A stretch of DNA of 32,464 nucleotides, taken from NCBI GenBank assembly GCA_944358805.1, contig CALVSD010000004.1, positions 1 to 32,464 of the forward strand, written 5' to 3'. Positions 9,942 through 30,356 of this stretch are shown here, one piece after another. The position numbers were made by a program, and so were the translations under genes. Under the pieces are notes generated by a model. The model was not told the DNA's origin, ran no database searches, and saw nothing but the letters and a program-made list of their open reading frames with translations. How positions within the stretch are numbered: position 1 is the first letter of the stretch; every line of letters starts with the position of its first letter. This DNA is from an uncultured Bacilli bacterium. GTDB taxonomy: Bacteria > Bacillota_I > Bacilli_A > RF39 > UBA660.

Positions 9942-11174
9942 ATGAAAAAAGTATATGGTATTATTTTGGCATTTTTACTTTGTATTGTAAACATTACAGA
10001 TATTAGTGCTGCTACTATTAAGTCTTCTAATTTAATTATTGATGGTAAAACTTGTTATAAAAATTATCATAACGATGTAACTAATGAAGACATACATGGT
10101 AATCTTCCTAGTATATTTATTACAGTTGATGGGAAAGCAGCATATTGTGTTAATTTTGGTGTGGATTTACAAGAAGGTGATGCTACATATCAAGAACATT
10201 ATTTAAAAATGTTAAATAATAATAAAGATTTATATAATAAGATAAGTTTAATTGGATTATATGGTTACTCATATTCGGGGCATAAAACTAATAATTATTA
10301 TGGAGCTGCTCAATTGTTAATATGGGAAACTATTCTTGGAGCAGGTTTACAACCAGAATATAAAGTTAGGGATTTAAGTTTTTATTCATCTGGTGCTGGT
10401 TATCATGCTGGTGAATTAATTAATTTAGATGTTCAGAAAAAAGAAATTTTAAAATTGGTTGAAGATTATTATAAAAAACCAAGTTTTTGTGGACAAACTT
10501 ATAAAATAAAAAAAGGACAAACTTTTACTATAAAAGATTCTAACTCTGTTTTAGGAAATTATAAAGTATCTGCAAATAATACTAATTATTTAACATATCA
10601 AGTAAGTGGTAATCAAATTACCTTTAAAGCTAATAAAGTTGGTACAGGAACTGTGTTAACCTTCTCTAAAGGAATTAATGATACAAACACTATGGTATAT
10701 AGAGTTAACGATGGGCAAGAAGTAATAATACCTACAGATTATCCTGATATATCATGTGAACTTAAAGTAGAAGTATTAGAAGAAGATGCTGGTTATATTC
10801 AAATAAAAAAAGTAGACAAAGAAACAAAAGATCCTTTAAAAGGTGTAAAATTCTCTGTATATAACGAAAAAGATGAGGTAGTAGATACAGTAATTACAGA
10901 TGATAAAGGTATTGCTATTTCTAAAAAATTACCTTATGGAAAATATTATATAAAAGAAGTAGAGTCTTTAGATGGTTATATTTTAAATGAAGAGAGAATT
11001 GATGTTACAATAGATAAAAATGAAACATTTGAAATAGAGTTTACTAACGAAAAAGATATTCCAGAATCTCCACCTACTGGAGATATATTAATTGGTGTTG
11101 TTTGGGCAATTGGAGCATTTTGTCTAGGATTTAGTATTTATTATTATACAAGAATGAGAAAAAAAGAATCTTAA
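9942..11174 (+). CDS. Wall-anchored surface protein with thioester and SpaA-type domains
   Basis: This is a Gram-positive adhesin-like protein. Residues 1-23 are a signal peptide ending ISA-A. Residues about 30-175 look like a TQXA/thioester domain: Cys69 in AYCVNFG and Gln124 in AAQLLIWE are the expected partners of an internal thioester that can react with host surfaces. Residues about 200-275 look like a beta-sandwich. Residues 284-370 form a SpaA/Cna-B-like domain, with Lys290 in IKKVD and Glu339 in YIKEVE placed for an intramolecular isopeptide bond. The tail PPTGD (about 377-381), a hydrophobic helix and RMRKKES make a sortase signal in which PPTG replaces LPxTG. It is a single gene with its own promoter; no sortase gene is in the window. 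Bond chemistry is predicted from family knowledge. Confidence 0.85.
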   Translation: MKKVYGIILAFLLCIVNITDISAATIKSSNLIIDGKTCYKNYHNDVTNEDIHGNLPSIFITVDGKAAYCVNFGVDLQEGDATYQEHYLKMLNNNKDLYNKISLIGLYGYSYSGHKTNNYYGAAQLLIWETILGAGLQPEYKVRDLSFYSSGAGYHAGELINLDVQKKEILKLVEDYYKKPSFCGQTYKIKKGQTFTIKDSNSVLGNYKVSANNTNYLTYQVSGNQITFKANKVGTGTVLTFSKGINDTNTMVYRVNDGQEVIIPTDYPDISCELKVEVLEEDAGYIQIKKVDKETKDPLKGVKFSVYNEKDEVVDTVITDDKGIAISKKLPYGKYYIKEVESLDGYILNEERIDVTIDKNETFEIEFTNEKDIPESPPTGDILIGVVWAIGAFCLGFSIYYYTRMRKKES

Positions 11175-11231: not shown

Positions 11232-11747
11232 ATGATTGATAAAAAGAATTTATGGTTTTTAACTTTATTTAGTTTAGTATTAGTATTAAGTATATATTAT
11301 GTAACAATGCCCAATGAACTTTTGTTAACAAATAATAATACTGAAACTGTTAGTAACAATAATACTGAAAAAACTGATAATATTTCTGTATCAATTACAG
11401 AAAGCGATGTTATTTCAGCTTTGAAAGTAGAAGATGAAAATGATACTTTAGAAGAAATAAATACTTTGAAAGAAACTTTAACTAATTCTGAAGAAACAGT
11501 CGATAAAAAGAATGAAGCTTATGATAAAATAAAAGAATTAAATGAAAATAGTGGCAAAGAAGAAACTATAGAAAACATGTTAAAAGAAAAATATAAATAT
11601 GATGTTTTTGTTAAAATTGATAAAGATCAAGTAAGAGTAGTAATAGGTACAAAAGAACATTCAACAGAACTTGCAAACGAAATAATGAGGTTAGTTCAAG
11701 AACAATTTACTAATAAGATGTATATATCAGTTCAATTTCAATCATAA
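11232..11747 (+). CDS. spoIIIAH: SpoIIIAH-like sporulation protein
   Basis: The protein has the layout and motifs of SpoIIIAH, the mother-cell half of the SpoIIIAH-SpoIIQ channel across the two membranes around the forespore. The N-terminus NLWFLTLFSLVLVLSIYYVTMP is the conserved transmembrane segment. A variable polar linker (about 30-75), a helical segment (ETVDKKNEAYDKIKELNE) and the C-terminal ring-forming domain (IENMLKEKYKYDVFVKIDKDQVRVVI) follow. At 171 aa it is shorter than the B. subtilis protein, mostly in the linker. The rest of spoIIIA and spoIIQ are not in the window. A weak CATAATATA (11196-11204) lies at the right distance upstream for a mother-cell sigma factor, but with no clear -35. 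Next to gerE, the assignment is strong. Confidence 0.85.
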   Translation: MIDKKNLWFLTLFSLVLVLSIYYVTMPNELLLTNNNTETVSNNNTEKTDNISVSITESDVISALKVEDENDTLEEINTLKETLTNSEETVDKKNEAYDKIKELNENSGKEETIENMLKEKYKYDVFVKIDKDQVRVVIGTKEHSTELANEIMRLVQEQFTNKMYISVQFQS

Positions 11748-12060: not shown

Positions 12061-12104
12061 CATATTATATATTAATTTACATATATTTTATTAGGGTGAT
12101 TCTA

Positions 12105-13079
12105 ATGTTAAAGAAAATGTCAATAAGGTCAATAAGAAAGATAATGGTATCTACTTTAACTTTATTTATATTATTAATTATATATTTAATGCCTGATAGT
12201 ATTAATGATAAAGAAATAAGCTTAACTAATGATAATGTTGAATATATATATTCTAATACACTTGAAACTATATATTTGCTTGATAGTAATGATTATGTTG
12301 CTAGAACAAAAATAGATAGTTGTAAATGTGAAGGAATAGATAAAGCAAGAGATTTAATAAATGGTCTTATAATTGATGGTACTAAGAGCAATATTATACC
12401 AAATGGTTTTAAATCAGTTATACCATCAGGAACTAGTATTAAAGATATTAGTTTAGATAATGGAATACTTACTATTGATTTTTCTAAAGAATTATTAGAA
12501 ATTACAAAAGAATATGAAGAGAAGATGATAGAATCTATAGTATATACATTAACTTCTATTGAAGGAATAGATAAAGTAGTAATAAAAGTAGATGGTAAAG
12601 TATTAGATAAATTACCTATAAGTGGTAAACTATTACCAACATATTTAGATAGAAATTATGGTATTAATAAAATATATGATATTACTACTACAAACAATAT
12701 TGATTCATATACACTATATTATGTTAATACTTATAATGATAATAGTTATTACGTTCCTGTAACAAAATATGTAAATAATAATTCTAAAGATAAAATAAAA
12801 GTTATAATAGAAGAATTGTATAGTGCTCCTATATATGAATCTACACTTATGAGTTTTTTAAATTCTAATACTAAACTTTTTGATTACAAATTAGATGGTA
12901 ATAAATTAACTTTAAATTTTTCTGAAGATATTTTATCGGATATTACCAGTAACAATATTTTAGAAGAGGTAATATATACAATAAGTTTAACTATGAGTGA
13001 TAATTATGGGGTTGAAGAAGTTGTTTTTTTAGTAGAAAATGAAGAAATTTACAAAAGTTTAATAAAAGATATTGAATAA
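12105..13079 (+). CDS. gerM: GerM-like protein with two GerMN domains
   Basis: I start at ATG 12105 because AGGGTGAT (12093-12100) is placed for it; a GTG at 12096 lies inside that site. Residues about 12-32 are a membrane helix. Two copies of the GerMN (sporulation and germination) domain follow, about 55-170 and 200-320. Each has a helix feeding a beta unit: ARDLINGLII then KDISLDNGILTIDFSKEL, and IKVIIEELY then YKLDGNKLTLNFSEDI. In B. subtilis GerM is needed for normal sporulation and helps retain the SpoIIIAH-SpoIIQ complex. Unlike that lipoprotein, this one has no lipobox and seems anchored by its N-terminal helix. It lies one gene away from the spoIIIAH-like gene, consistent with a shared role. 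Confidence 0.85.
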   Translation: MLKKMSIRSIRKIMVSTLTLFILLIIYLMPDSINDKEISLTNDNVEYIYSNTLETIYLLDSNDYVARTKIDSCKCEGIDKARDLINGLIIDGTKSNIIPNGFKSVIPSGTSIKDISLDNGILTIDFSKELLEITKEYEEKMIESIVYTLTSIEGIDKVVIKVDGKVLDKLPISGKLLPTYLDRNYGINKIYDITTTNNIDSYTLYYVNTYNDNSYYVPVTKYVNNNSKDKIKVIIEELYSAPIYESTLMSFLNSNTKLFDYKLDGNKLTLNFSEDILSDITSNNILEEVIYTISLTMSDNYGVEEVVFLVENEEIYKSLIKDIE

Positions 13080-24225: not shown

Positions 24226-26520
24226 ATGAATAAAAAAAATATATATATTTTTGTAACTCTAACATTGTTTTTTGCTTTAATTAATTTAACAGAAGCAGAT
24301 GTTACTAGAGCTAAAGTTTATTGTCCTGATGATAATGAACCACTTAATATAAGGGAAAGTATCGGTGGTAATATAAAAACTGCTTTAGCGTGTAATACAG
24401 AGGTAAAAGTATTAGATCAAAATGCTGGTGTTGATGGTAGTGGTAGGACTTGGTATAAGATTGAATACGGAAGTGGAAGTGTAGGGTATGCAGTTTCTAC
24501 TTATATAAAGATTATTGAAACAATCAAATTATCTGGTAGTGATAATATATACGTTAAAGAGAACTATGATAGTGCACTTGATGCTGATGGATTTATGGCT
24601 TGTTATGAAGATACAACAGATGTTAGTTTAAGAACTGAACCTAATGGTAACAAAACTGGTAAAAAAGTTAGTTGTGGAGAAAAAGTTAAAATTAATTCTG
24701 TTAGTGAAGGTAGCGGTAATTGTGGGTATTTTTATAATATAACTGATTCTAAAGGTAATAGTGGCTATGTGTGTGGATATTTTGTAAATACTACTAAATT
24801 AAGTTCTACTGCAATGAATTATTATAATACAAAAGAAAGCTTAGATAGCTATTATAATAGTTTAAGAAGTAAAGGATTTCCTGAAAGTTATTTACCATAT
24901 TTGGCAGAAATACATGCAAGGCATCCAAATTGGGTATTTGAGGCAGAAAAAATTAATATAGATTTTAATGATGTAATTGAAGGGGAAAGTGCTTATGGTA
25001 GAAATTTACTTGAAGGTGCTTATTTTTCACAGAATTATCGTTCAATGGGAATTAATACTTACGATATTTTAAATGATACATTTTATCAATATCCAACAGA
25101 AGCTGGATGGTATGATGCTTCCACGGAAGCAATTGCGTATTATATGGATCCCCGAACATATTTAAATGAAAAATATATATTTGCATTTGAATCATTAAAA
25201 TTTAATAGTGCCCATAATTCGGATATAATAAAAAAAGTATTATCATCTCAATCTTTTTGGCCTAAAGTATACCAGGGGTATGATGGAAATATTTATGAAG
25301 ATATAGTCAAAGCTACTGAAGAAGTTGATATTAGTGCGGTTCATATAGCCAGTCGTATTAAACAAGAAATAACTGGAATTTCTGAGACAGATCCTAGACT
25401 TGGTGGAACATTTAACTATAATGGTCAAAGCTACAGTGGTTACTACAATTTCTTTAATATAGGAGTTTATGGTGATAATAAAATAGTAAATGGCATGGTA
25501 TATGCAATGAATAATGGTTGGAATACGCCCTTTAATGCAGTATATGGTGGTTCTAAATTTATTGGAGAAGGTTATATTTCTATAAATCAAGATACAATGT
25601 ATTATCAAAAGTTTGATGTATCTACTAATAACGGCCATTATACACATCAATATATGCAAAATTTAGCTGCTCCTATTCAGGAAACAAATACAACTTATAA
25701 TACTTATGTTAATAATTTAAGTGATTATTTGAATACTGCAATAAAATTTACTATACCTGTATATGAAAATATGAGTAATTATGCAGTAGTTGCTCCTAGT
25801 ATTGGAAATCCTAACAATTATTTGAAAAATATAACTATAGATGGCAGTACAATTTCTAATTTTAGTTATGATGATTTTAGTTATGATATAAAAGTTCCTG
25901 GTAAAGTAAATAGTATTAAAATTGGTGCGACAACTATAAATAGTAATGCTACTGTAAAAGGAACTGGTGATATCCCAATAAATGAAAAACAAACAACAAT
26001 TACATTAAATGTAACTTCTGAAAGTGGTAGAAGTAGAGATTATGTTATTAATGTTACCAAGGACGAAGTAGAAGAAGGAGAGACTGTAGAATTAAGTTAT
26101 ATACTTGATAATATTGGAATAAAGTATAATGAAAATTATATGTATGGTATTTCTGAAGATACTGACGTGAAAAGTTTAATTAATAATGTGTCTAATGTTA
26201 ATTCTTATGCTAGTGTAACTATAAAAGATAAAGACGGAAATAGTAAAACTAGTGGAGTGTTTAAAACGGGGGATAAAGTAACTATATCTAATTCTAAAGA
26301 TGAAATAACTTTAACAATATTATTGTATGGTGATATTAACGGGGATGGTAGAATAGATAAAGATGATTGCTTAGCAATATTAAGACATTTAAATGGTTAT
26401 ACTTCGTTAACGGATGTTTATAAAGTGGCAGCTGATTCAAATAAAGATGGAAAAATAGACAAAGATGATTGTTTAGCAATATTAAGACATTTAAATGGTT
26501 ATACGGATTTAAATAAATAG
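24226..26520 (+). CDS. Secreted glucosaminidase with SH3-like domains and a C-terminal dockerin
   Basis: This is a predicted peptidoglycan hydrolase (autolysin) that cleaves N-acetylglucosamine bonds. Residues 1-24 are a signal peptide. Two bacterial SH3-like domains follow (about 30-95 and 120-190: LNIRESIGG and VSLRTEPNGNKTGKKV). Residues about 220-480 are the glucosaminidase domain, starting YLAEIHARHPNWVFEAE; Glu381 in HIASRIKQE is the probable catalytic acid. A Cadherin-like beta-sandwich (about 530-620) and a small beta domain (about 630-700) come next. Residues 703-764 are a type I dockerin, with two Ca-binding loops (GDINGDGRIDKDD and ADSNKDGKIDKDD). The next gene, 10 bases on, encodes a membrane protein with the same Cadherin-like domain. 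Dockerins normally bind cohesins; none is certain here. Confidence 0.9.
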   Translation: MNKKNIYIFVTLTLFFALINLTEADVTRAKVYCPDDNEPLNIRESIGGNIKTALACNTEVKVLDQNAGVDGSGRTWYKIEYGSGSVGYAVSTYIKIIETIKLSGSDNIYVKENYDSALDADGFMACYEDTTDVSLRTEPNGNKTGKKVSCGEKVKINSVSEGSGNCGYFYNITDSKGNSGYVCGYFVNTTKLSSTAMNYYNTKESLDSYYNSLRSKGFPESYLPYLAEIHARHPNWVFEAEKINIDFNDVIEGESAYGRNLLEGAYFSQNYRSMGINTYDILNDTFYQYPTEAGWYDASTEAIAYYMDPRTYLNEKYIFAFESLKFNSAHNSDIIKKVLSSQSFWPKVYQGYDGNIYEDIVKATEEVDISAVHIASRIKQEITGISETDPRLGGTFNYNGQSYSGYYNFFNIGVYGDNKIVNGMVYAMNNGWNTPFNAVYGGSKFIGEGYISINQDTMYYQKFDVSTNNGHYTHQYMQNLAAPIQETNTTYNTYVNNLSDYLNTAIKFTIPVYENMSNYAVVAPSIGNPNNYLKNITIDGSTISNFSYDDFSYDIKVPGKVNSIKIGATTINSNATVKGTGDIPINEKQTTITLNVTSESGRSRDYVINVTKDEVEEGETVELSYILDNIGIKYNENYMYGISEDTDVKSLINNVSNVNSYASVTIKDKDGNSKTSGVFKTGDKVTISNSKDEITLTILLYGDINGDGRIDKDDCLAILRHLNGYTSLTDVYKVAADSNKDGKIDKDDCLAILRHLNGYTDLNK
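26352..26504 (+). repeat. Two near-identical copies of a 51-nt dockerin segment
   Basis: 26352-26402 and 26454-26504 are 102 bases apart and differ at only two positions, both silent. They encode IDKDDCLAILRHLNGYT twice. Confidence 0.95.
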
Positions 26521-26530
26521 GAGGAATCTA

Positions 26531-27862
26531 ATGAAATCAATAAAAAAATTATTAATATTTATGATTGCGTTTGTTGTATGTACAAACAGTGTAAGTGCAA
26601 CAAGTTTAACGATAAAGAGTAGTGCTTCGTCAATAACCAAAGGAAGTACTGTAACTATTACTTCTTTAATATCAGCAGATAGTGGAATTTATACAACTTC
26701 AGGTACGGTTAAATGTACTGGCGCAGGTGTTAATTCAAGTGTTGATTTAGGGTTTGAAGATTTAAATACTGCTAATAGATCTAAATCATTTTCACTTACA
26801 ATAAAACCTACAACATCAGGAACTGTAACTTGTTCTTCATCTAATGTTAGAATAAGAGAATTAGCACAGGCTAGTGAATACTCTTTGTCCGATAAATCAA
26901 TTACAATTACTGTAAGGGAACCTGCAGTTATTCCCCCTAAAGAATATTCTAGTAATAATTATTTAAAGTCACTTAATATTGAGGGGTATGAAATAAGTTT
27001 TGATAAAGAAACTTTAGAATATTCTATTGAGGTAGAAAATGGTGTTGAAAAAGTAAATATTAGTGCTTCTCCTGAAGATTCTAAAGCATCTGTTAGTGGA
27101 ACAGGGGAAAGAGAAGTTACCGAGGGAAATAATAAATTAGAAGTAAAAGTAACTGCAGAAAATGGTAATGAAAGAACGTATGTTATAAATGTTAAGGTAA
27201 AAGAATTAGATCCTATTAATGTTAAAATTGATAATGAAGAATATACAGTAATAAGAAAAGAAGATGTGTTAGAAGTTCCTAAAAACTATGAAAAGACAAC
27301 AGTTACTATTGATGGGGAAGAAGTCCTTGCGTATTATAATAAAAATACTAAATATACATTAGTAGGCCTTAAAGATAAAGATGGAAATGCTAATTATTAC
27401 ATTTATAAAGATGGAAAATACACATTATATAAGGAATATACATTTAATGGTATTACATTATATTTAACGGGTAAAAAAGTAGATCTTCCTAATTTTAAGA
27501 AAACTTCATTTAGTTATAATGATGATAAGATAGAAGCTTATCTATTATCAGAAGATAAATTAAGCGGTAGTTCGGAAAAATATTACTTATTCTATGCTGT
27601 TAATATAGAAACAGGTAAAGAAAATTTATATCAATATGATCCATCTGAAGGAACAGTTCAAAAATATAGTTCTTCAATGATGAATTTGCTTGAAGTATAT
27701 AAAGAAGAAGCTAATAGAAATTTTATATTGTTTATAGCAATTAGTGTAGTTTTAGTGCTTTTAGTTGTAATTAAGATAATTACTGCAATTATAAAAAGAA
27801 AAAAAGATAATAATAGAATTAATAAAAAAGGAAAATTAAATGTTAAAGAAATCGATTTGTAG
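26531..27862 (+). CDS. Membrane-anchored beta-sandwich protein, putative partner of the glucosaminidase
   Basis: GGAGG precedes ATG 26531, 10 bases after the glucosaminidase stop, so the two are co-transcribed. Residues 1-23 are a signal peptide ending SVSA-T. Residues about 24-131 form an Ig- or cohesin-like beta domain with two Cys (SITKGSTVTITSLISADSG). Residues about 142-229 are a Cadherin-like domain (YLKSLNIEGYEISFDKETLEYSI, in part) matching one in the upstream protein. Residues about 230-390 contain repeated Tyr/Lys-rich beta segments with no recognised family. Residues about 397-418 are a membrane helix, followed by a basic cytoplasmic tail. The outside part could hold the enzyme at the membrane; that is inference. 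A strong terminator follows. Confidence 0.8.
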   Translation: MKSIKKLLIFMIAFVVCTNSVSATSLTIKSSASSITKGSTVTITSLISADSGIYTTSGTVKCTGAGVNSSVDLGFEDLNTANRSKSFSLTIKPTTSGTVTCSSSNVRIRELAQASEYSLSDKSITITVREPAVIPPKEYSSNNYLKSLNIEGYEISFDKETLEYSIEVENGVEKVNISASPEDSKASVSGTGEREVTEGNNKLEVKVTAENGNERTYVINVKVKELDPINVKIDNEEYTVIRKEDVLEVPKNYEKTTVTIDGEEVLAYYNKNTKYTLVGLKDKDGNANYYIYKDGKYTLYKEYTFNGITLYLTGKKVDLPNFKKTSFSYNDDKIEAYLLSEDKLSGSSEKYYLFYAVNIETGKENLYQYDPSEGTVQKYSSSMMNLLEVYKEEANRNFILFIAISVVLVLLVVIKIITAIIKRKKDNNRINKKGKLNVKEIDL

Positions 27863-28026: not shown

Positions 28027-29277
28027 GTGAGAAAAATTTACACAAGTATTGATATTGGTTCTGATACAATAAAGTTTGTTGTAGGAGAACTTTATAATAA
28101 AAATATAAATATTCTTTCTTCTAATACGATAAAAACTAAAGGTGTTAGAAAAGGATTAATATTTGATCCTAATTTAACTATTAATGCAATAAAAGATGGA
28201 ATAAAAGAAGTAAACTCTGATTTAGGAGTTGAAATTAAAAAGGTTATCGTAAATGTTCCCAATTATAATGCTAAATTTATGTTTGTAACAGGTAGTGTTA
28301 CTATTAATAATGAAGATGAATTAGTTACAACAGAAGATATAAATAAGGTAATAAAAAATTCAGTTTATAGTAAACTTGCTATAGATTATGAGTTAGTAAC
28401 AGTTCTTCCTGTTGAATTTATATTAGATGGTGAAGTTGTTGATAAACCTGTTCAAAAAAAAGGAAAGAAATTAGAATTAAAAGGGATTATGGTATCTGTA
28501 CCTAAAAAAAATATTTATTCTGTACTTAATGTAGTTGAAGGAGCAGGGCTTGAAGTAGTAGAAATTACTTTGTCTGGTCTTGCTGATTATTTTGAGGTAA
28601 AAAATGTTAATACTGATAAAAAAGTTGGAGCAATAATAAATTTAGGACATGAAACTACTACTGTATCAGTAATTAATAAGGGGAAACTTATGAATACTGA
28701 AACTATACAATTAGGTGGCTTAAATGTTGAAAAGGATTTATCTTATATATTTGGAATAAACATATTTGATGCTAGGGTTTTGAAAGAAAAATTTGCTTCA
28801 TCTCATAAAAGATTTTGTCAACTAAATGATGTTTATGAGATAAAAAATACATTAGGTGAATTAATTAAGATAAATCAATTAGAGGCTTCTGAAGTAGTTA
28901 TGAGTAGACTAAGAGAAATTTTAGAACTTGCTAAAAAACAAATTCTTTTACTTACAAAACAAAGTATTGGATATATAATTTTAACAGGTGGGCTTACAGA
29001 AATTAAAGCTTTTAAAAATTTAGCCTTTGAAATTTTTGGAAAAAGTGTTATAATATATTCAATGGATACATTAGGAGTCCGAGATAATAAATATGTTACG
29101 TCTTTAGGTATGATAAAATATTTTTGTGATAAAATGGATATGAGAGGTAGAGAATATTCAATGATGGATACTGCAGATGTTACGGCACTAGTTACACCTA
29201 GTAGTAAAACTAAAAAAGACAACATGATATTTACAAAGTTTATAGAGAACTTTATTACAAATAAGGAGGAAAAATAA
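28027..29277 (+). CDS. ftsA: FtsA, actin-like cell division protein
   Basis: FtsA ties FtsZ filaments to the membrane and recruits later division proteins. The actin-type ATPase motifs are present: [15 protein letters not shown] (phosphate 1), [17 protein letters not shown] (phosphate 2) and [13 protein letters not shown] (adenosine). The family-specific 1C subdomain lies about residues 80-165. The C-terminal [17 protein letters not shown] is the amphipathic membrane-binding helix. At 416 aa it has normal length. The start is GTG 28027, about 8 bases after AGGGAGAG (28011-28018); an ATG at 28025 is followed at once by TGA. The stop shares its last A with the ftsZ start. Unlike many Bacilli, no divIB, murG or mraW-type genes flank it; the upstream operon is an autolysin system. 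Confidence 0.93.
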
Positions 29278-30356
29278 TGAATAATATGTTTGGTTTAGAA
29301 ATGGATCAGTTAGCAAAAATAAAAGTAATAGGTGTCGGTGGTGGTGGTAATAACGCCGTTAACAGGATGATTGAATCTGGTCTTAAAGGGGTTGAATTCA
29401 TTGTTGCCAATACTGATTTACAAGTTTTAAATAATTCTCTTGCTCCGGTTAAATTACAAATAGGAAGTGAGCTTACTGATGGCCTTGGAGCTGGTGCTAA
29501 TCCAGAAATAGGTAGAGAAGCAGCACTTGAGAGCAAAGCAGAAATAGAAGAAGCTCTAAAAGGTGCAGATATGATTTTTGTAACTTGTGGTATGGGTGGT
29601 GGAACTGGAACAGGTGCAGCACCAGTAATTGCTGAAATTGCTCAAGATTTAGGGGCACTTACAGTAGGTATAGTTACTAAACCATTTAGTTTTGAAGGTA
29701 AAAAGAGAATGGAACAAGCTATAAGCGGACTTGATGAATTAAAGAAACATGTAGATACTTTAATTGTAATACCTAATGATAGATTAAGAGAATTAATAGA
29801 TAAATCTACTCCAATGTTAGAAGCATTTAGAGAAGTTGACAATGTTCTTCATCGTGGTGTTCAATCAATATCAGACTTAATTGCTGTAGCAGGTTTGGTT
29901 AACTTAGATTTTGCTGACGTTAAAGCTGTTATGAAAGATAGAGGAAATGCATTAATAGGTATAGGTGTAGGTTCAGGAGAAGGTAGAGCAGTAGAAGCTG
30001 CTAAACAAGCTGTGTCATCTCCACTTTTAGAAACATCAATTAATGGAGCAACAGATGCTATTATTAATGTAACAGGTGGATCTTCTTTAACATTATTTGA
30101 AGTAGAAGAAGCCGCTGAAGTAATTAGAACTGCTGCTAATACTGATATTAATACAATATTTGGAGCAGTAATCAACGAAAACTTAACTGACGAAGTAATA
30201 GTTACTGTAATTGCAACAGGATTTGAAAAACCAAGTGAACCTTTATATCATAGTTTTAATACTTCTAGAGAAGAACTTCTTAGAAGTAGAAGTAGTGGGG
30301 ATATTGATAACGATTTAGATATTCCACCATTTTTAAGGGATAGAGATAATTATTAG
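29277..30356 (+). CDS. ftsZ: FtsZ, tubulin-like division GTPase
   Basis: FtsZ assembles the division ring. The nucleotide-binding sequences are complete: [13 protein letters not shown], the tubulin signature GGGTGTG at 107-113, and PNDRL. The catalytic loop segment is present as [18 protein letters not shown]. The short linker is followed by [11 protein letters not shown], a conserved C-terminal peptide that binds FtsA, EzrA and SepF. At 359 aa it is close to the family norm, with a short variable linker (about 315-345). AAGGAGG lies about 8 bases before ATG 29277, which overlaps the ftsA stop by one base (TAATG). A strong terminator follows. Confidence 0.97.

Follow-up and report, generated by a model that had tools for sequence, protein, structure and literature searches.

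What does a dockerin do at the end of a cell-wall hydrolase, and is the membrane protein encoded by the next gene its receptor? Most of what is known of cohesin-dockerin pairs concerns the assembly of cellulosomes, which degrade plant fibre. The locus that raises the question lies on contig G000:C4 of an uncultured Bacilli bacterium (a MAG of 1.31 Mb in 111 contigs), and the window, that is, the whole stretch of DNA analysed, covers 32,464 nucleotides. Two co-oriented ORFs, P1 (24226-26520, 764 aa) and P2 (26531-27862, 443 aa), stand at the coordinates first given for them and are separated by 10 bp holding ggagga. The first-pass annotation had described a glucosaminidase ending in a dockerin, followed 10 bases on by a gene for a membrane protein, with a Cadherin-like domain common to both; the two ORFs and their Pfam domains agree with this, the shared domain falling at residues 533-612 of P1 and 145-222 of P2. 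Six PBP transpeptidase matches in the genome, together with EzrA in the window, indicate a walled cell, in which an autolysin makes sense. The features of P1 and of the gap are as follows.

24226..26520, + strand: P1, predicted secreted SagB-like glucosaminidase with a C-terminal type I dockerin, 764 aa (Pfam, NCBIfam, PDB match)
24226..24300, + strand: P1 N-terminal signal peptide, end approximate (sequence; hydropathy of 64 pairs)
24361..24510, + strand: P1 SH3_3 domain 1, residues 46-95 (Pfam)
24595..24795, + strand: P1 SH3_3-like domain 2, approximate residues 124-190 (Pfam, two stretches; boundaries by inspection)
24832..25770, + strand: P1 catalytic region, about residues 203-515 (NCBIfam, PDB match)
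25822..26061, + strand: P1 Cadherin-like domain (Pfam 533-612)
26077..26325, + strand: P1 small alpha/beta module before the dockerin, in an X-module-like position
26326..26496, + strand: P1 predicted type I dockerin, two near-identical repeats, DINGDGRIDKDDCLAILRHLNGY / DSNKDGKIDKDDCLAILRHLNGY (Pfam, structure model)
26521..26526, + strand: ggagga, likely ribosome binding site of P2 (sequence)

The top NCBIfam match of P1 was SagB, at 55 bits against a cut-off of 425 bits, and we therefore regard P1 as a SagB relative rather than an ortholog. The closest solved structure to the catalytic region was 6u0o_B (E 8e-13), which we take to be the entry of the SagB-SpdC complex, and in this alignment over the catalytic region E381 of the P1 motif RIKQE aligns with the Glu of SagB's LLETG. 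By its homologous catalytic domain and catalytic Glu, P1 is thus a predicted member of the SagB/GH73-type glucosaminidases. Hydropathy of 64 pairs showed no TM-like stretch in P1 beyond the signal peptide. At the other end of the protein, the alpha/beta module preceding the dockerin gave weak fold matches at most in structure comparison, and Pfam placed Dockerin_1 at residues 701-757 (E 7e-10, full model 1-57), the sole dockerin above the Pfam cut-off in this genome. The dockerin model, predicted like that of the P2 first domain from an alignment of only five rows, matched type I dockerins (Z 10.6 and 1.6 Å to 8x39; 1.3 Å to 1ohz), and both repeats keep Ca ligands 1, 3, 5 and 12 in the sequence. 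With its two Ca-loop-helix repeats, the P1 C-terminus is a predicted type I dockerin, expected to bind a cohesin in a calcium-dependent manner.

P2 has a different architecture, with the candidate receptor domain at its N-terminus and a membrane anchor near its C-terminus.

26531..27862, + strand: P2, membrane-anchored predicted receptor, 443 aa (ORF, Pfam, relatives)
26531..26599, + strand: P2 signal peptide (sequence; hydropathy)
26600..26935, + strand: P2 first domain, residues 24-135, divergent cohesin-like, predicted dockerin receptor (profiles, model)
26963..27196, + strand: P2 Cadherin-like domain, a spacer (Pfam 145-222, E 8e-12)
27209..27685, + strand: P2 conserved stalk region, without a Pfam match (Pfam, relatives)
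27725..27781, + strand: P2 transmembrane helix, residues 399-417, then a short basic cytoplasmic tail (hydropathy)

Across the 64 pairs, hydropathy placed a TM helix in 61 of the P2 proteins and in no P1. The pairing itself is strongly conserved. Full-length relatives of P2 were found in most genomes of its family, and the enzyme was present in 64 of the 98 family genomes sampled; one of these (G024) holds only a fragment, and in the 63 whose contig allowed a neighbour check, P2 lay directly downstream of the enzyme on the same strand every time (63/63), usually after a gap of 3-30 bp. This is the search of related genomes that the first-pass annotation had proposed, and the pairing it had pointed to is kept throughout. 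With more than 60 related genomes holding the pair, the P1-P2 arrangement is not a product of chance. The enzyme ends in a dockerin in 62/63 of the checked family genomes. The exception is G094 (L193), where the enzyme carries many SH3 repeats and has lost the dockerin, and P2 still adjoins. A class-wide sample added P2 relatives in two further Bacilli families (f13 and f19), with twelve loci at which P2 and a dockerin protein are separated by no more than about 20 bp; the dockerin partners scanned there were mostly PF01832 glucosaminidases, plus one GH25 muramidase. Two f13 genomes (L211 and L212) have a P2 that lacks the first domain and has no dockerin neighbour. Finally, the same pair is present in Vescimonas fastidiosa MM35 (Clostridia, a human gut isolate) as WP_212821509.1 and WP_212821511.1, its genes 10 bp apart and annotated merely as dockerin-domain and cadherin-like proteins.

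We then asked what the first domain of P2 is. It had been called Ig- or cohesin-like, with a suggestion that residues 24-131 be compared with cohesin profiles. Pfam gave no above-cut-off match for these residues in the window P2, the Cohesin model PF00963 included, which is why we term the domain cohesin-like and not cohesin. The connection runs instead through relatives. Among the P2 first domains of the receptor class that we call A, 34/34 matched Pfam Cohesin at E<=0.1 (best 2.8e-10), and the class-A profile retrieved cohesins as its top PDB matches. Profile comparison linked the window's receptor class to class A with 96.7% probability over 107 columns, nearly the whole domain, and two other receptor classes with 97.0% and 95.5%, compared with 0.1-0.3% for control profiles of the P2 Cadherin-like domain and stalk (0.2% and 0.1% for the window's class). 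Receptor classes B1 and B3, searched by sequence against the PDB, returned nothing meaningful. The AlphaFold model of the window first domain is all-beta, a confident beta-sandwich (pLDDT 91.8). Structure prediction had been proposed as a check, and for the first domain it placed the cohesins 2jh2, 2w1n and 2vo8 at or near the top of the fold matches (Z 10.1-10.3), but with other Ig-like folds tied within 1 Z unit, and the fold therefore does not by itself decide cohesin identity, solved cohesins being nine-strand jelly-roll beta-sandwiches. Taking the profile link and the model together, the original description holds in the form of a divergent cohesin-like domain, and by sequence profile the window P2 first domain is homologous to recognised cohesins.

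The dockerin and the P2 first domain also change together. Over 62 pairs, pairwise distances of the dockerin correlated with those of the P2 first domain at r=0.74, compared with r=0.36 for the dockerin against the remainder of P1 and r=0.36 for the P2 first domain against P2's own Cadherin-like domain. The partial Mantel statistic for dockerin and first domain was 0.68 (0/2000 permutations, 62 pairs) with controls near 0, and it was 0.52 within class A alone and 0.44 in 13 pairs outside the family (0/5000 permutations each); such tests are liberal for related sequences, and the tree-based contrast is modest, with p 0.03 alone. The first-pass annotation had also offered contact between Cadherin-like domains as a possible link. 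This received no support, as the partial r between the dockerin and the P2 Cadherin-like domain was -0.08 once other parts were accounted for.

The co-variation is also visible as discrete classes. Four clusters of first domains, made blind to the dockerin, correspond to four dockerin motifs that were defined after inspection of the data (LLxVQK, YVxIKN, LLxxRQ and the window's xLAILR); only L165 is clearly mismatched among the assigned classes, and the motifs of five dockerins fall outside the four classes. On a tree built from all sequence except the dockerin and first domain, the classes switch 12-14 times, and receptor class B1 switches with dockerin YVxIKN in 6/6 independent contrasts (p 0.03). 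Information on receptor class is highest at dockerin positions 10, 11, 13, 17, 18 and 21, in the two repeats alike, and Ca ligands 1, 5 and 12 carry almost none. In type I complexes, helix positions 17-18 and 21-22 are contacts. The classical recognition pair corresponds to positions 10-11 as we count them and to 11-12 elsewhere (PMC5301203). The class-informative positions are, then, mostly known cohesin contacts.

A correlation of this kind could also arise if P1 and P2 were co-located without binding, whether because neighbouring gene ends were replaced together or because ancestry is shared. On the DNA, the first domain of P2 does adjoin the dockerin end of P1, and one recombination tract could carry both. 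However, the P2 signal peptide, which lies between the two domains, tracks the dockerin only weakly (partial 0.14), and the focus of class information on contact positions, with constant Ca ligands and both repeats changing in step, also argues against passive linkage; we consider this explanation very unlikely. A second possibility is that P2 is a mere neighbour and that the true receptor is another cohesin protein of this genome, on contig G000:C87 (883 aa, with a degenerate dockerin, a Pfam cohesin, two Cadherin-like domains and a TM segment). That protein is membrane-anchored and bears the only above-cut-off Pfam cohesin in the genome, and proteins like it, of 874-915 aa, are found across the genus. 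Yet it is the first domain of P2 with which the dockerin co-varies, and the pair is kept where no other cohesin was detected (for example, in G025, G031 and G036). In addition, the cohesin on C87 belongs to the general Pfam type, whereas the autolysin dockerin motif KDDCLAILRHLNG elsewhere accompanies P2's own receptor class, and the Pfam cohesin model matches P2 homologs at the expected place. We give the C87 protein only a slim chance of being the receptor.

Since dockerin and receptor change together across species, the pair very probably holds the enzyme at the membrane. We consider it likely that the two proteins make up a dedicated cohesin-dockerin tether, one receptor to one enzyme, with binding predicted from sequence. 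The surface tether for an autolysin that had been put forward for this locus is thus well supported by the 63/63 pairing and the co-variation of dockerin and first domain, and what we infer is the binding, its dependence on calcium, the activity of the enzyme, and where and to what end it acts. In the proposed mechanism, P1 would be exported as a soluble glucosaminidase, and P2, a putative type I membrane protein, would probably be co-transcribed with it. The calcium-loaded P1 dockerin would bind the N-terminal cohesin-like domain of P2, and the Cadherin-like domain, stalk and TM helix of P2 may keep the enzyme close to the membrane, at the place where new peptidoglycan appears. Tethered there, P1 would trim or release glycan strands, much as SagB of S. 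aureus does on its membrane scaffold SpdC.

Two known systems frame this proposal. In Staphylococcus aureus, SpdC scaffolds SagB for glycan-strand cutting (PMC10581084), and in both cases a membrane protein partner holds a glucosaminidase, the two enzymes being related. However, SpdC is homologous to CAAX proteases and SagB is itself membrane-associated, whereas P1 is soluble and its link would be a predicted cohesin-dockerin plug. P2 was rejected as an SpdC-type partner, as it has one C-terminal TM helix plus beta domains and no CAAX-protease-like Pfam match. In its simplest reading, the tether would be a convergent solution, a soluble glucosaminidase plugged into a single-pass membrane receptor. 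With the type I pairs of cellulosomes (C. thermocellum, 1ohz, 2ccl), P1-P2 shares the dockerin fold, two symmetric Ca loops, the loop and helix contact positions, a cohesin-like receptor and surface anchoring. It differs in having one receptor per enzyme in one operon, an own-wall hydrolase as cargo and a TM helix as anchor, and three of its receptor classes have diverged beyond the reach of the Pfam cohesin model. Use outside cellulosomes is shared with the C. perfringens cohesin modules (2jh2, 2w1n, 2vo8), which rank among the closest structural matches of the window domain; those cohesins are built into glycosidases, and in P2 the cohesin-like domain is part of a predicted membrane receptor. 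Dockerin-bearing cell wall hydrolases are themselves known from ruminococcal cellulosomes (PMC6403190), which thus also fuse a dockerin to a peptidoglycan hydrolase, but those are reported within multi-enzyme scaffoldin systems, in contrast to the two-gene dedicated pair described here.

A cellulosome- or mucinolysome-like scaffold for outside substrates, in which P2 would take several dockerin enzymes, might be suspected from the 10-15 dockerin matches in some family genomes and from paralogous P2 genes that adjoin M6-peptidase-like dockerin proteins. However, the helix motifs of the other dockerin proteins in G073, G080 and G026 differ from that of the autolysin in the same genome, and nearly all lineages scanned have a peptidoglycan hydrolase as the upstream partner of P2. 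There is only one receptor domain in P2 and one good dockerin in the window genome, whose one above-cut-off cohesin sits in a separate protein, and on these grounds the window system was rejected as a cellulosome. Of the readings weighed here, the scaffold is the one we hold least probable.

The pair also had been read through its downstream neighbours, which in the window are division genes.

28027..30356, + strand: ftsA and ftsZ, neighbours outside the conserved system (TIGR01174, TIGR00065)

Here ftsA (TIGR01174) starts at 28027 and ftsZ (TIGR00065) at 29277. The placement just before ftsAZ is true of the window but is not a trait of the system. Within the genus, ftsAZ follows the pair in the window, G002, G004 and G005, and the one further case is G109 (L041/L194). 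Two genomes of this genus, G003 and G006, carry other genes downstream of the pair, and ftsAZ was not beside it in any further genus examined, G109/L041 apart. The neighbours that recur elsewhere are genes for LytR-CpsA-Psr (LCP) with PASTA (22 loci), Glycos_transf_4 with polysaccharide deacetylase (19 loci) and O-antigen ligase/GT1 (11 loci), pointing to wall-polymer work in general. Because the ftsAZ link is not conserved and the recurrent neighbours are cell-wall-polymer genes, the role in daughter-cell separation that had been drawn from the ftsAZ placement is unsupported. A division-specific system, with the autolysin positioned at the septum to separate daughter cells, would be compatible with the tether, and LytB- and Atl-type hydrolases do serve cell separation in other species (PMC6403190); the five genomes with ftsAZ after the pair fit such a role, but two members of the genus lack the division genes at this position, and genes for LCP, Glycos_transf_4 and O-antigen ligase recur in other genera, so that we think it unlikely.

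Returning to the dedicated tether, we lean towards a wider reading, in which it would represent an undescribed, widespread Bacillota class of two-gene cohesin-dockerin tethers attaching the cell's own peptidoglycan hydrolases (SagB-like, PF01832, GH25) to the membrane, with at least 4 receptor specificity classes, three of them unrecognisable as cohesins, switching repeatedly with matching dockerin codes. A literature text search, with most subscription journals outside its reach, found no account of a membrane receptor dedicated to a single autolysin and no description of matched switching of dockerin and receptor classes. The plug known from cellulosomes seems here to manage the cell's own wall, with one receptor per enzyme, which suggests how uncultured Bacilli with small genomes control a dangerous enzyme and would extend the SagB-SpdC principle of a membrane-scaffolded glucosaminidase to another anchoring chemistry. 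The family is also a source of dozens of cohesin-dockerin pairs that are matched by nature and possibly orthogonal. As a cultured clostridium carries the pair, the idea is directly testable. The pair itself was found in a large group of uncultured gut-type bacteria.

Two relatives of P2, the membrane-anchored protein encoded beside the dockerin-bearing autolysin P1, are without its cohesin-like first domain:
L211 4849-5895 (genome G344)
L212 4021-5001 (genome G355)
No dockerin neighbour was found for either, and these loci are natural absences of both partners, the first domain and the dockerin neighbour. A paralogous P2 adjoins the gene of another dockerin protein, with an M6-peptidase-like domain, at two further loci, where the order of the two genes is reversed:
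L216 1422-5595 (G137)
L217 3995-8414 (G213)

The autolysin can also occur without its dockerin, as in the following gene, which P2 still adjoins:
L193 3615-6266 (G094), autolysin with many SH3 repeats, one of them inserted inside the catalytic region
Among the P1 homologs, eight SagB-like glucosaminidases (L103, L116, L133, L150, L156, L160, L165 and L191) are circularly permuted, with the equivalent of P1 residues ~430-515 placed N-terminal to that of ~203-430.

An unlikely rival candidate for the receptor of the P1 dockerin, encoded on another contig of the same genome, is conserved within the genus:
G000:C87:1071-3695 (L172), second membrane protein, which combines a Pfam cohesin and a degenerate dockerin with a TM helix and two Cadherin-like domains

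Other genes were identified in the window itself:
63-1910, BspA-type leucine-rich repeat protein
9942-11174, thioester-domain (TED) and SpaA protein, possibly a covalent adhesin
11232-11747 and 12096-13079, sporulation-type genes (SpoIIIAH-like and Germane-domain)
The host genome carrying these two sporulation-type genes is 1.3 Mb.
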